Source: Vulcanococcus limneticus LL
GTDB taxonomy: Bacteria > Cyanobacteriota > Cyanobacteriia > PCC-6307 > Cyanobiaceae
Assembly (NCBI RefSeq): GCF_002252705.1
Contig: NZ_NQLA01000028.1
Location: forward strand, 1 to 40,193
Direction: 5' to 3'
DNA: 40,193 nt
The position numbers and the translations under genes were made by a program. Shown here piece by piece: positions 14,355-19,094 of this stretch; position 1 is the stretch's first letter; each line of letters begins with the position of its first letter. The notes below the pieces were generated by a model. That model was not told the DNA's origin. It worked only from the letters and a program-made list of their open reading frames with translations, and ran no database searches.

Positions 14355-16700
14355 ATGACTGTGACCGCCAGCAGCGGCAGCAGCAGGGTTGCACCCCAGC
14401 GCTACGACACCCTGCCGCTCTCCAGCGTCCGTCAGGCGGAACAGCAGGATCGCTTCCCCGACGGCACTGAGCTGCAGACGCTCGCCACCTTCTTCGAGAG
14501 CGGCAAGCTCCGGCTCGAGGCCGCCCGTCGTCTCTCGGCCAATGCCGAGACGATCGTGGCCCGCGCCGCCAACCGCATCTTCGCGGGGGGTACGCCGCTG
14601 TCCTACCTGGATGCGCCCCTGAGTCCAGCCGCCAGCGAGGAAACGCCCCTCGCCGCCGACCAGGTCGCCTTCCAGAAGTCGGTCCAGACCTTCACCGGCG
14701 GCAGCGCCAGCAAGGGCAATTTCCTCACCCGCCTTCTCGAAGGGGGCGGTGACGCCGACGTGCGGGTGGTGATCCCCACCGGCTTCTCGCCGATCAGCGT
14801 CGCCGTCTACGGCACGGCGCGGATGAAGAAGTCGATCCGCGACCTGGCCTGGTTCCTGCGCTACGTGGGCTACGCCGTGGTGGCGGGTGATCCCAGCATC
14901 CTGGCGGTCAACACCCGGGGGCTGCGCGACGTGCTCGAGAAGGGCTGCTCCCTGGCCGCCACCAACGTGGCCCTGCAGGAGATGCGCGCCGGTGCGGCCG
15001 CCCTGCTCAAGGACCTGCCCGAAGCGCGCCAGCTGCTGATCGAGAGCTTCAACGTCCTGATCAAGGAGCTGGACGTTCCCACCCCCTCGCCGCGCCAGCG
15101 CCTTGGCAGCCCCGAGAACCAGGGCCTGCAACTGCCGGCGATCTACGCCCTGGCAGCCCAGGGCAAGGCTCTCCGCTACAACATGAAGCCGGGCCTGACC
15201 GGCGGACAGAAGGCCGAGGTGGTGCGCGCCGCCTACCGCCAGGTCTTCGAGCGCGACATCGTCAAGGGCTACAGCCAGGAGGTGGCGCCGGTGCAGGCCA
15301 CCCAGCTGCGCCAGGGCCAGATCTCGGTGCGCGAATTCATCCGCGCCCTCGGCCACAGCAAGGAATACCGGCAGCAGTTCTACAGCCGCTTCTCCAACAG
15401 CCGCGCCGTGGAGCTGGCCTTCCGCCACTTCCTGGGCCGCGGCATCAGCTCGAAGGAGGAATTCACCCGCTACTTCGACATCGTCAGCGCCCAGGGCCTC
15501 AAGGGCCTGGTCGATTCCCTGATCAACACCGCCGAGTACGCCCAGGTCTTCGGCGAAGAAACCGTTCCCTTCCTGCGGGACATCGGCGAAGAGGCCCAGG
15601 AGAGCGCGGGCTGGGGCAGCAACCGCAAGCTGTTCCGCTTCAGTGCCCCATTTGAAGGCGCTCCCCAGTACGTCACGCTCTACGCCAGCTACCGCCGGCC
15701 CTTTGCCGACCAGCACCCCTACGGCGGCGGCAACGATCCCCTGGGCCTGAACTACGGCGCCATCTTCCCCTCGGGTACCGCCAGCGTGGCCACCCGTCCG
15801 GCACCGTTCAGCTACGACAGCCGACGCATCCTGGTGGGCAACGGTCTGCGCCAGCCCGGCCAGATGAACAGCCCCCAGTTCCGCGCCTCCACCCCCCGCA
15901 AGGTGGGCCCCAAAGTGGTGCGCCTGACCCAGATCGCCACCGGCGGCAACTCGGTGCCCCGCCGCGGCGGCCAGCCCAGCGTGCGCAACACCGAGGCCGG
16001 CACCCAGGCCGTGATCAACGCGGTGTACGTGCAGGTGCTGGGCAACACCGGCTACGCCGGTGAGCGCAACACGGTGGAGGAGATCAAGCTTGAGAACGGC
16101 GATCTCAGCCTGCGCGAGTTCATCCGCCAGGTGGCCCGTTCCGATGCCTTCCGGCGTCGCTACTGGAGCGGCCTCTACATCACCAAGGCGATCGAGATCA
16201 TCCACCGCCGCCTGCTGGGCCGTCCCACCTTCGGCCGCTGGGAGATCGACAGCTACTTCGACGTAGCGGCCCGCAAGGGTTTCTACGGCGTGGTCGACGC
16301 GATCCTCGACAGCCGTGAATACAGCGAGACCTTCGGCGAGGACACGGTCCCCTACGAGCGCTTCATCACCCCGGCGGACCTCAACAGCCGGCGCGTGCCG
16401 GCCCTGAAGCGGGAGCTGGACCTGGCGGCCTACGCCGATCTCACGCCTCGCCAGCGCCCTGAGGTGGCTCCCCCCCGCGATTTCCGCTATGCCGGCGAGC
16501 TGACCCGCCGCAACCTCCCTGCCAAACCTGCGGTGGTGCGGGGAGGCTGGAGCGCCACCCTCAGCGGCGGCCAGAGCCTGGCGCCGAGCGTGCCCGCAGA
16601 CCAGGGACCCGGCACCATCGCCACCCCGCCCGAACCCTCCCGCCGCTGGAGCGCACCGCGCTGGCAGCCCGGCGGTGGCCTCACTCCCACCTGGAGCTAG
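14355..16700 (+). CDS. apcE: Phycobilisome core-membrane linker ApcE, N-terminal 781 residues, ended by an in-frame TAG
   Basis: ApcE (LCM) organises the allophycocyanin core, anchors it to the thylakoid and acts as terminal emitter. Residues 1-240 are the phycobilin-binding domain starting MTVTASSGSS, interrupted by the usual PB-loop (about 78-150); the bilin-binding Cys is Cys198 in KGCSLAATNVALQEM. Linker repeat 1 spans about 285-415 (ends FGEETVPFLRD) and repeat 2 about 550-672 (FGEDTVPYERF). Translation then meets TAG at codon 782 (16698-16700). The frame continues open to 17405 and encodes a third repeat, so the full-length gene would be 14355-17405, 1016 residues. The truncated form has only two repeats. 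Confidence 0.93.
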   Translation: MTVTASSGSSRVAPQRYDTLPLSSVRQAEQQDRFPDGTELQTLATFFESGKLRLEAARRLSANAETIVARAANRIFAGGTPLSYLDAPLSPAASEETPLAADQVAFQKSVQTFTGGSASKGNFLTRLLEGGGDADVRVVIPTGFSPISVAVYGTARMKKSIRDLAWFLRYVGYAVVAGDPSILAVNTRGLRDVLEKGCSLAATNVALQEMRAGAAALLKDLPEARQLLIESFNVLIKELDVPTPSPRQRLGSPENQGLQLPAIYALAAQGKALRYNMKPGLTGGQKAEVVRAAYRQVFERDIVKGYSQEVAPVQATQLRQGQISVREFIRALGHSKEYRQQFYSRFSNSRAVELAFRHFLGRGISSKEEFTRYFDIVSAQGLKGLVDSLINTAEYAQVFGEETVPFLRDIGEEAQESAGWGSNRKLFRFSAPFEGAPQYVTLYASYRRPFADQHPYGGGNDPLGLNYGAIFPSGTASVATRPAPFSYDSRRILVGNGLRQPGQMNSPQFRASTPRKVGPKVVRLTQIATGGNSVPRRGGQPSVRNTEAGTQAVINAVYVQVLGNTGYAGERNTVEEIKLENGDLSLREFIRQVARSDAFRRRYWSGLYITKAIEIIHRRLLGRPTFGRWEIDSYFDVAARKGFYGVVDAILDSREYSETFGEDTVPYERFITPADLNSRRVPALKRELDLAAYADLTPRQRPEVAPPRDFRYAGELTRRNLPAKPAVVRGGWSATLSGGQSLAPSVPADQGPGTIATPPEPSRRWSAPRWQPGGGLTPTWS
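16698..16700 (+). other. apcE: In-frame amber codon inside apcE
   Basis: TAG stands at codon 782 between ...TPTWS and GVTSFGTG.... Both sides are in the same frame (codons begin at positions divisible by three) with no indel. It falls in the Pro/Ser/Gly-rich linker between repeats 2 and 3. A single substitution from CAG, TGG, GAG or AAG would produce it; CAG GGG is a plausible ancestor. The true end of the frame is another TAG at 17403-17405. Confidence 0.9.
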
Positions 16701-16775
16701 GGGGTCACCAGCTTCGGCACCGGGGTCAGCAGCACCCCGACATCCCCAGCCTTCTCCGTTGGCGCTGTTGCCCCT

Positions 16776-17405
16776 GTGGTGGGTGGCTGGTCGAAGGCCG
16801 TGGCGGGCACCCTGGCCGCAGGCCCCGCCCAGCAGCCGGGCCAGGCGATGCAGAAGGCCCTGCGACCCGACCGTCCCCAGGGCTTCGCCCGCCGCCAGAG
16901 CCTGGGACGGCCCCTGCAACTGGCCCTGCGGCCCAGCCCTGCCGAGCTGAAGCAGGCCATCGACGCCGTCTACCGCCAGCTGCTCAACCGCCAGCCCCTC
17001 GCCGCCGAGCGGCTGGTGGATGCTGAGTCGCAGCTGCGCAACGGCAAGCTGAGCGTGGCCGACTTTGTGGCCAAGGTGGCCGGAAGTGAGCTCTTCGAGC
17101 GCCGCCTCAACCGCATGGCACCGCTGCGGGCCGCCGCCGCCGCCTACCTGGCCCTGCTGGGACGCGCCGCCCAGCCCCATGAAACCAGCCGTTTCCTGGC
17201 CACCCGCACCACCGAGGGCCTGCGGGCCTCCATTGAGGCGATCCTGAGCAGCCAGGACTACGCCTCGGCCTTCGGCCGGGACACTGTGCCCTACCTGCGC
17301 GGCCTGGCCACCAGCGACGGCATCCCGCTGACCACCGTGAACCGCACGGCCTCCCTCTACGGCGGCAATGCGGCCCTCAATCCGCCCATCAAGGGCGCCA
17401 TCTAG
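16776..17405 (+). pseudogene. apcE: C-terminal part of ApcE after the amber codon, with the third linker repeat
   Basis: In the same frame as the upstream apcE part, the region after the amber codon (16701-17402, 234 codons) is uninterrupted. It holds a full phycobilisome linker domain: PSPAELKQAIDAVYRQLLNR, GKLSVADFVAKVAGSELF and FGRDTVPYLRG, equivalent to the ends of repeats 1 and 2. It ends GNAALNPPIKGAI, a normal ApcE C-terminus. If translated separately, possible starts are GTG 16776 or ATG 16848; neither has a strong ribosome-binding site. The lack of further stops or frameshifts means the part is recent, selected for, or the TAG is an error. It is listed as a pseudogene fragment for want of proof of expression. 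Confidence 0.75.
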
Positions 17406-17451
17406 GACGAGAGCACTCGTCAGGATTCCTGGCGTCCAAACGAGCAGCCCA

Positions 17452-17477
17452 CCGGCCCCCACAAGGGCCGGTTTTTT
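17452..17477 (+). terminator. Intrinsic terminator after apcE
   Basis: The 7-bp stem CCGGCCC (17452-17458) / GGGCCGG (17465-17471) with a 6-nt loop is followed by six T residues (17472-17477), 46 nt after the final apcE stop. It separates apcE transcription from apcABC. Confidence 0.88.
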
Positions 17478-17845: not shown

Positions 17846-18331
17846 ATGAGCATCGTCTCCAACTCGATCATCAACGCGGACGCCGAAGCCCGCTACCTCA
17901 GCCCTGGCGAACTCGACCAGATCAAGGCTTTTGTGAGTGGTGGCCAGCGCCGCATTCGCGTAGCCCAGGTTCTGAGCGAGAGCCGCGAGCGCCTGGTGAA
18001 GCAGGCCGCAGGCGCCCTCTTCCAGAAGCGCCCCGACCTGATCTCCCCCGGCGGCAACGCCTACGGCGAGGAGATGACTGCCTCCTGCCTCCGCGACATC
18101 GACTACTACCTGCGCCTGGTGACCTACGGCGTGGTGGCCGGTGATGTCACCCCGATCGAGGAAATCGGGATCATCGGCGCCCGCGAAATGTACCGCTCCC
18201 TCGGCACCCCCCTGGAGGGCATCGCCGAGGCCGTGCGTGAACTGAAGGTCGCTTCCGCGAGCCTGCTCACCGGTGGCGATGCCGAAGAGGCTGGCTTCTA
18301 CTTCGACTACGTCGTCGGCGCCCTCTCCTGA
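17846..18331 (+). CDS. apcA: Allophycocyanin alpha subunit
   Basis: A 161-residue phycobilisome core protein starting [23 protein letters not shown]. The phycocyanobilin attachment Cys is Cys81 ([14 protein letters not shown]). The length is exactly that of the family. It pairs with ApcB to form the (alpha beta)3 discs of the core. It is the first gene of apcA-apcB-apcC, with only 38 nt to apcB. The preceding terminator and long leader imply its own promoter, as expected for the most abundant core proteins. Confidence 0.99.
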
Positions 18332-18369: not shown

Positions 18370-18858
18370 ATGCAAGACGCCATCACCAACGTCATCAATT
18401 CGGCCGACGTTCAGGGTCTCTACCTGGACGGCTCCTCCATCGGCCGCTTGGAGCAGTATTTCGCCTCCGGTGAACTGCGGGTGCGCGCTGCCGCCACCAT
18501 CAGCGCCAACGCCTCGGCCATCATCAAGGAAGCCGTCGCCAAGTCGCTGCTGTACTCGGACATCACCCGTCCGGGCGGCAACATGTACACCACCCGTCGC
18601 TATGCCGCCTGCATCCGCGACCTGGACTACTACCTGCGCTATGCCACCTACGCCATGCTGGCCGGTGACACCTCGATCCTCGACGAGCGCGTGCTGAACG
18701 GCCTCAAGGAGACCTACAACTCCCTGGGTGTGCCCATCGGTGCCACCGTCCAGTCGATCCAGGCCATCAAGGAAGTGGCTGCCAGCCTGGTGGGTCCTGA
18801 TGCCGGTCGTGAACTGGGCGTCTACCTCGACTACATCAGCTCCGGCCTGGGTAACTGA
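18370..18858 (+). CDS. apcB: Allophycocyanin beta subunit
   Basis: A 162-residue partner of ApcA, starting [16 protein letters not shown]. The bilin-binding Cys is Cys81 ([14 protein letters not shown]), and Asn71 in RPGGNMY is the residue gamma-N-methylated in beta phycobiliproteins. Family length is normal and no anomaly is seen. A pyrimidine-rich 38-nt spacer precedes it and 35 nt separate it from apcC. Confidence 0.99.
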
Positions 18859-18893: not shown

Positions 18894-19094
18894 ATGCGTC
18901 TGTTCAAGATCACGGCCTGCATCCCCTCCCCTGAGAAGACCCGGACTCAGCGCGAGCTGCAGAACACCTTCTTCACGAAGTGGGTGCCCTTCGAAAGCTG
19001 GTTCGCTGAACAGCAGCGGATCATGAAGCAGGGCGGCAAGATCCTGAAGGTCGAACTGGTCACCGGTCGCCGTCAGGTCAGCGTCGGCAACTGA
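18894..19094 (+). CDS. apcC: Phycobilisome small core linker (LC 7.8)
   Basis: A 66-residue linker with the CpcD-like domain: MRLFKITACIPSPEKTRTQREL at the start, then NTFFTKWVPFESWFAEQQRI and KVELVTGRRQVS. It caps or stabilises the allophycocyanin discs of the core cylinders. It completes apcA-apcB-apcC. A terminator follows at 19201-19225. Confidence 0.98.
   Translation: MRLFKITACIPSPEKTRTQRELQNTFFTKWVPFESWFAEQQRIMKQGGKILKVELVTGRRQVSVGN

Follow-up and report, generated by a model that had tools for sequence, protein, structure and literature searches.

Results

A stop codon separates the third linker repeat from apcE

The window studied here, a stretch of 40,193 nucleotides from Vulcanococcus limneticus LL (contig NZ_NQLA01000028.1, positions 1 to 40,193, forward strand), carries an apcE gene that starts at ATG 14355 and encodes 781 amino acids before a TAG, beyond which the same frame stays open until a second TAG at 17403-17405 (Table 1). 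A Pfam search places three PF00427 matches at this locus and, given their positions, two repeats lie 5' of the first TAG and one lies 3' of it, with the break inside the REP2-REP3 spacer. As the original prediction had claimed, exactly two complete repeats precede the stop, the break is in the spacer between repeats, and both parts, REP1-REP2 and REP3, are intact. The nearest relative found (G019, 96% identity over the first 781 residues) has a Ser at the TAG codon and encodes a fused ApcE of 1016 aa which, together with the open frame after the stop, confirms the break noticed earlier at this codon. A comparison of the window with 40 kb of G019 showed, as judged by reading, no real gene besides apcE that had an internal stop; the other stops counted belonged to shadow frames or to upstream ORF extensions.

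Table 1. Features of the apcE region of V. limneticus LL, in positions of the window
Feature	Position	Strand	Remarks
apcE, truncated core-membrane linker LCM	14355..16700	+	PF00502 and two PF00427; start MTVTAS common to nearly all relatives with the N-terminus available
Linker repeat REP1 (PF00427)	15207..15578	+	E 2.5e-41
Linker repeat REP2 (PF00427)	15993..16361	+	E 1.8e-40
REP2-REP3 spacer	16362..16934	+	Consensus of 82 complete fused genes
TAG stop where the nearest relative has a Ser codon	16698..16700	+	Comparison with G019
Open continuation of the apcE frame with REP3	16701..17405	+	Reading of the open frame
Candidate free REP3 cistron, 185 aa, 20.0 kDa	16848..17405	+	Putative initiation at the conserved ATG; conservation of the Met
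Linker repeat REP3 (PF00427)	16935..17300	+	E 2.1e-31; predicted structure with PF00427 fold
Hairpin and T run 3' of REP3, intrinsic-terminator-like	17451..17472	+	Terminator scan
apcA	17846..18331	+	Presumed from sequence and gene order
apcB	18370..18858	+	Presumed from sequence and gene order
apcC (probable)	18894..19094	+	Presumed from sequence and gene order

The chain encoded before the stop has the domain composition of an LCM, with an N-terminal PF00502 domain (E 9.8e-24) followed by two PF00427 stretches, and its two repeats, the only ones it has, are colinear with ApcE of S. elongatus. A three-repeat LCM, in which REP3 is covalently joined to REP2, is precluded in LL by the TAG as long as this codon is not read through. 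We regard it as highly probable that the LCM of LL is truncated. The predicted masses, 85.5 kDa for the truncated form and 110.1 kDa for the full-length one, agree with the values of about 85 and 110 kDa given originally. The gene order apcE-A-B-C has been reported in a study of marine Synechococcus (PMC2246261). A terminator scan gave three sites in the region, against 2.3 expected by chance, and listed no hairpin site between the TAG and REP3; near the break, Rfam matches were all below the gathering score.

V. limneticus LL is described as a phycoerythrin-rich isolate from Lake Albano with an absorbance maximum at 573 nm (PMC5902973). From this description the strain has phycobilisome pigments, and a strain with no phycobilisomes at all, on which the original prediction would have foundered, is, as to pigments, not what is found. 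Elsewhere in the same genome (G000:C23:1935-2417) there is a match of the phycobiliprotein alpha type with one internal TAA, perhaps a decayed extra copy.

Separation of REP3 recurs among relatives

We collected apcE from 25 genomes of the genus (LL included), from the best 80 loci of a named genome collection, and from a set of 400 genomes in the family, at least 207 with an ApcE match and at least 187 with a REP3 match at the cut-offs set. The family stretches analysed came from 80 genomes, 20 picked for their short frames and 60 fused, plus four contig pieces; among the matches listed, every short-frame genome was taken unless cut by a contig end, and about 20 more fused non-marine genomes, some of which may equal named loci, were left out. 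The resulting 133 distinct loci were classified as fused (103), split (13), remnant (5), without significant REP3 match (5), cut by a contig end (4) or partial (3). One locus first scored as contig-cut (L068, genome G369) was rescored as split, with REP3 on another contig; the two contigs appear to adjoin.

A tree of a single gene was built on the N-terminal 690 codons of apcE (128 tips), from which 15 fused tips were dropped, 13 of them marine-side and two (L027, L028) divergent members of the genus of LL; the dropped tips are thus absent from the w test, the neutral-age test and the clade count. In the remaining 113 tips, REP3 is separated, decayed or gone in 24 and fused in 86, and three unknowns were left out, giving 24 of 110 scorable tips (24 of 125 if the dropped tips are included), a proportion that overstates the true frequency because short genes were preferentially sampled. 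These 24 tips fall into 15 clades of the apcE tree. Two members of one clade, L074 and L103, carry different frameshift indels, so there are 16 events by lesion; since their lesions differ, we rejected a shared ancestry of this split, which would have been proof of long retention.

All 24 truncated ApcEs end about 98-141 codons past REP2, after the P.P.R.W motif, and none ends within REP1-REP2; the N-terminal match (to residue 690) proved free of stops in all 133 loci, of which three are partial. The lesions comprise TAG, TGA and TAA codons and indels of 1 and 2 nt. The separation of REP3 in LL is therefore more than a chance accident, as it recurs across relatives. We recognised no description of REP3 separation or loss in picocyanobacteria in the literature searched, which was mostly open-access, and neither this recurrence in 15 clades, nor the decay and loss of REP3 in relatives, nor the link with phycoerythrin described below was part of the original prediction.

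Three observations on the sample may be recorded here. A record titled as a MAG of Bifidobacterium breve (L071) encodes a Cyanobium-like ApcE and is probably a mislabelled bin. In four loci (L105, L106, L107, L111) the encoded ApcE, at 1180-1190 aa, exceeds the usual three-repeat form in length and perhaps has four repeats, as reported for some marine strains. Genome G020 has two different apcE genes (L012, L034), which may reflect a mixed bin or possibly two copies.

The 24 cases differ in the state of REP3. Its frame is intact in nine: L009 (this window), L019, L055 (Cyanobium sp. ATX 6A2), L088, L124, L074, L103, L068 and L076 (Cyanobium sp. CACIAM 14), each a single tip of the tree with its own lesion. 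REP3 is broken in L123, L125, L126, L129 and L133, reduced to a remnant in L048-L051 and L056, and without significant match in L079 (C. usitatum Tous, where a 15-residue trace is all that is left), L084, L102 (SynAce01), L130 and L135. No break inside REP3 was found in the 103 fused loci, two of which are cut by contig ends. In L124 (genome G106), comparison with its fused sister L148 reveals a spacer that has nonsense codons as well as two 1-nt indels compensating each other. Four stops, that of apcE included, interrupt the REP3 frame of this locus, and from the conserved ATG described below onward REP3 is clean; that the three further lesions are all in the spacer has a p of about 0.004 under an even spread (a rough estimate). 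A new ATG, missing from L148, lies 9 bases past the last TGA of this decayed spacer and is a possible reinitiation site.

Selection on the separated REP3

Pairwise w for REP3 was 0.05-0.16 in pairs with a separated member and 0-0.15 in fused pairs. In a codon model of 92 REP3 sequences, w was 0.082 on the nine separated tips versus 0.097 elsewhere (2dlnL 2.37, not significant); the nine tips thus display neither the relaxed selection nor the further lesions in the REP3 part by which a pseudogene would be recognised.

We also estimated for how long REP3 could have evolved neutrally since separation, on a scale obtained by converting nucleotide branch lengths of the N-terminus to synonymous units. 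Such a neutral stretch would occupy at most 2.5-10% of each tip branch, with upper bounds of 0.0045-0.056 synonymous substitutions per site (0.0077 for REP3 of the window). With the age of separation taken as uniform, neutral evolution from the break onward is disfavoured on every one of the nine tips (joint lnBF -26.5), and 53 fused control tips behave alike (mean lnBF -2.2 each), the best neutral fraction being above zero in 8 of them and one reaching lnBF 14. The latter is a fused gene whose REP3 is relaxed or fast-evolving. A rough calculation from the seven events of decay or loss along 48.5 synonymous units gives an expectation of 0.16-0.89 young events, against the nine counted. Taken together, the w and neutral-age tests indicate either that REP3 is still under selection or that all nine breaks are very young, and the evolutionary evidence, as read from these sequences, leans towards a maintained free REP3 in LL.

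Association with phycoerythrin

The phycoerythrin gene cpeA (NF058506 above cut-off) was detected in 23 of the 80 genomes and in 5 of 34 further entries, two of which are genomes already scored. For the 109 tips with both states, cpeA accompanies 13 of the 24 separated or lost REP3 and 13 of the 85 fused ones (Fisher p 2.4e-4). The association is also supported when the tree is taken into account in a two-trait model (LRT 7.0, p 0.008), which assumes a fused root and no regain of REP3 and in whose unmasked null fit the phycoerythrin rates became extreme. Incomplete MAGs can miss cpeA, and with absences in MAGs less than 90% complete treated as unknown the same model gave LRT 13.5 (p 2.4e-4). 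Its dependent fit has a zero rate of separation without phycoerythrin, which is possible only if cpeA was later lost, or was missed, in the exceptions. These are four separated cases in genomes at least 95% complete (L074, L076, L084, L135) and, in less complete ones, L068, L088, L103, L129 and three of the L048-L056 clade.

Comparisons between sisters point the same way. LL has cpeA and its fused sister G019 does not, and all six clear contrasts (L009, L055, L124, L123, L133 and the L048-L056 clade) share this direction, with none opposite (sign test p 0.03); a seventh, L019, is ambiguous, its sister locus belonging to a genome in which apcE is present twice. We also considered that the orange carotenoid protein (OCP) was lost along with the top cylinder, and rejected this for want of a clear link: PF09150 is present in 75 of the 80 genomes, and is missing in 3 of 24 separated (G022, G128, G304) and 2 of 56 fused ones (G109, G233).

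A candidate start for a free REP3

The consensus of the spacer in the 82 complete fused genes has P.P.R.W in its first half and AM..AL...QGF.RR.SL in its second, with variable sequence between. The Met of the AM..AL motif, which in LL is ATG 16848, is found in all 82 of the complete fused relatives aligned and is kept in eight of the nine intact separated cases, being absent in L019; it precedes the REP3 match by 57-66 bases in the six separated cases measured. Two starts had been put forward for a free REP3, GTG 16776 and ATG 16848; both are in the REP3 frame, and the ATG is the better candidate of the two. The motif around this Met is also conserved as protein, so the residue may serve the fused protein, and the preceding Gly codon is not invariant. 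No clear ribosome-binding site was seen upstream of ATG 16848 in LL. The mean Shine-Dalgarno duplex energy at the conserved ATG (-3.5, versus -2.5 at the apcE start) does not discriminate, other internal Mets giving -0.1 to -3.7, and the predicted local fold at ATG 16848 (-22.4) is more stable than those at the apcA (-13.0) and apcB (-4.7) starts and like that at apcE (-20.7).

REP3 has the PF00427 fold in a separate open frame without PF00502, the sequence make-up of an ApcH-like free core linker. Its predicted structure has a mean pLDDT of 76.8, with blocks over residues 21-150 at 84-96, and matches PF00427 domains, for example in top-cylinder entry 8tpj, one chain of which gave TM 0.76. It is probably made as a free 20-kDa linker from ATG 16848.

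Discussion

The link between the number of LCM repeats and the number of allophycocyanin cylinders was drawn largely from distant cyanobacteria. In published work, Rep3 and ApcC are placed in the B (top) cylinder (PMC9205905) and REP4 is reported as required for the C cylinders (PMC8448738). By analogy with this placement and with the two-repeat ApcE of S. elongatus PCC 7942, a two-repeat LCM should organise the basal pair of cylinders and the top cylinder should depend on REP3, so the idea of a smaller core in LL fits the literature on Rep3 as the repeat that holds the top cylinder.

The sequences show the truncated frame, the intact REP3, the recurrence, the absence of any sign of relaxed selection and the association with phycoerythrin; that REP3 is translated, where it sits in the antenna and how many cylinders the core has are inferred. 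The reading to which we give somewhat better than even chances is that LL has a two-repeat LCM plus a REP3 that is probably a free linker, by one of at least 15 parallel separations favoured with phycoerythrin. On this account the TAG would be a real nonsense change within the LCM spacer. The LCM of LL would have a mass of 85 kDa and comprise REP1, REP2 and the membrane and terminal-emitter domain, which together are presumed to hold the two basal allophycocyanin cylinders. REP3, the top-cylinder part in known cores, would have become an independent downstream cistron, with a free, basic 20-kDa linker initiated at the conserved ATG 16848 through reinitiation or internal initiation, and the top cylinder could thereby turn into an optional, separately dosed add-on. 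The same event would have happened at least 15 times in this family of picocyanobacteria, preferentially in lineages with phycoerythrin in their rods, and in several lineages REP3 would then have decayed or been lost. The recurrence through differing lesions, the lack of breaks inside REP3 in fused loci, the w and neutral-age results, the small number of young events expected and the phycoerythrin association speak for this reading, and L124, with its much-damaged spacer and clean REP3, is the most telling single case. Several points count against it, among them the want of a clear ribosome-binding site and the stable fold at ATG 16848, the missing ATG of L019 and the single-gene tree. Since some relatives have lost REP3, a core without it works, and if all nine separations are very young, their unrelaxed selection proves nothing.

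In the reading that comes next in probability, with appreciably less than even chances, LL carries a young nonsense mutation, REP3 is no longer made, the core has two cylinders, and the REP3 frame is intact only through recency, as the first step of its loss. Relatives with decayed REP3, with remnants and with no significant match are what such a path would leave behind, the nine intact separations are on single tips with a lesion of their own, and in S. elongatus a two-repeat ApcE accompanies a bicylindrical core. Against this, nine very young separations are needed where fewer than one is expected from the rough rate given above. Breaks inside REP3 should also be about as frequent as breaks in the spacer, unless half a REP3 is harmful, and the fused loci have none; all nine first lesions are confined to some 65 codons out of 250, which for evenly spread lesions has a p of about 5e-6 (a rough figure). 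The spacer of G106, which has accumulated several lesions next to a clean REP3, is likewise hard to reconcile with recency.

The two other readings are both improbable. The TAG could be an assembly error or a mutation arisen in culture, as it is a single substitution in a genome published as a draft of 3,548,882 bp (PMC5902973), assembled with SPAdes into 160 contigs from Illumina HiSeq reads of a non-axenic culture, and no second strain was found; on the other side, the same kind of break is seen in 15 clades, in MAG-titled records and others, and the genes neighbouring apcE are intact. To much the same slight degree, ribosomes could pass the TAG at some rate, so that short and full-length LCM would coexist and cores would vary in size. 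REP3 is constrained, and the frame is in register in six of the nine intact cases (L009, L019, L055, L088, L124, L068), as readthrough would have it, but the lesions are TAG, TGA, TAA and frameshifts at different places with no evident common context by eye, G106 has several stops in a row, and the REP3 of LL itself ends in TAG. A shared stop or slip site with its context, the mark of programmed readthrough or frameshifting, was thus not seen by eye. A suppressor or an alternative code was rejected because REP3 ends in TAG and other lesions are TGA, TAA and frameshifts.

More broadly, and as a tentative proposal that we hold with less than even confidence, picocyanobacteria might repeatedly make a two-part organiser, a two-repeat LCM plus a freely dosed REP3 from a conserved internal start, which would render core size adjustable; the change would follow the gain of phycoerythrin rods, and some lineages would drop REP3 and settle on a smaller core. 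In LL, a pink cyanobacterium of fresh water, the protein that organises the antenna core is cut short by a stop codon ahead of its third building block; independent breaks of a similar kind are numerous among relatives, so the size of the antenna core may be evolving repeatedly in nature. The apcE series is a natural example of a large scaffold protein losing a domain, and its separations tie the organisation of the core to the pigment of the rods. Sister pairs with fused, separated, decayed and missing REP3, some of them in records not titled as MAGs, make the repeat-cylinder rule directly testable among close relatives.

Among known systems, the nearest to the truncated LCM is ApcE of S. elongatus PCC 7942 (PDB 9wg7, bicylindrical by the title of the entry), a protein of 705 aa whose residues 1-685 align with residues 1-690 of LL over the PF00502 domain, REP1 and REP2. 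This chain matches a REP3 query in two stretches only and hence has two repeats in all; unlike it, LL keeps an intact REP3 frame downstream and has a three-repeat sister strain. In that sister, G019, the same protein has REP1-REP3 fused, and in marine Synechococcus ApcE is reported with three repeats, or four in two strains, most cores being three-cylinder (PMC2246261); LL differs from both in that a stop codon breaks the covalent link to REP3. Two-cylinder cores are also described for the bicylindrical far-red ApcE2 complexes, where ApcE2 uses its second REP domain to hold the second hexamer (PMC12152189), although ApcE2 is a separate paralogue used in far-red light, unlike the truncated ApcE of LL. 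For the free REP3, the closest likeness is ApcH of Anthocerotibacter panamensis, described as a free core-core linker that has PF00427 without PF00502 on a separate polypeptide (PMC10696076). ApcH is longer (a chain of 431 aa) and forms a clade of its own, whereas the free REP3 of LL, a predicted protein, derives from a split of apcE.
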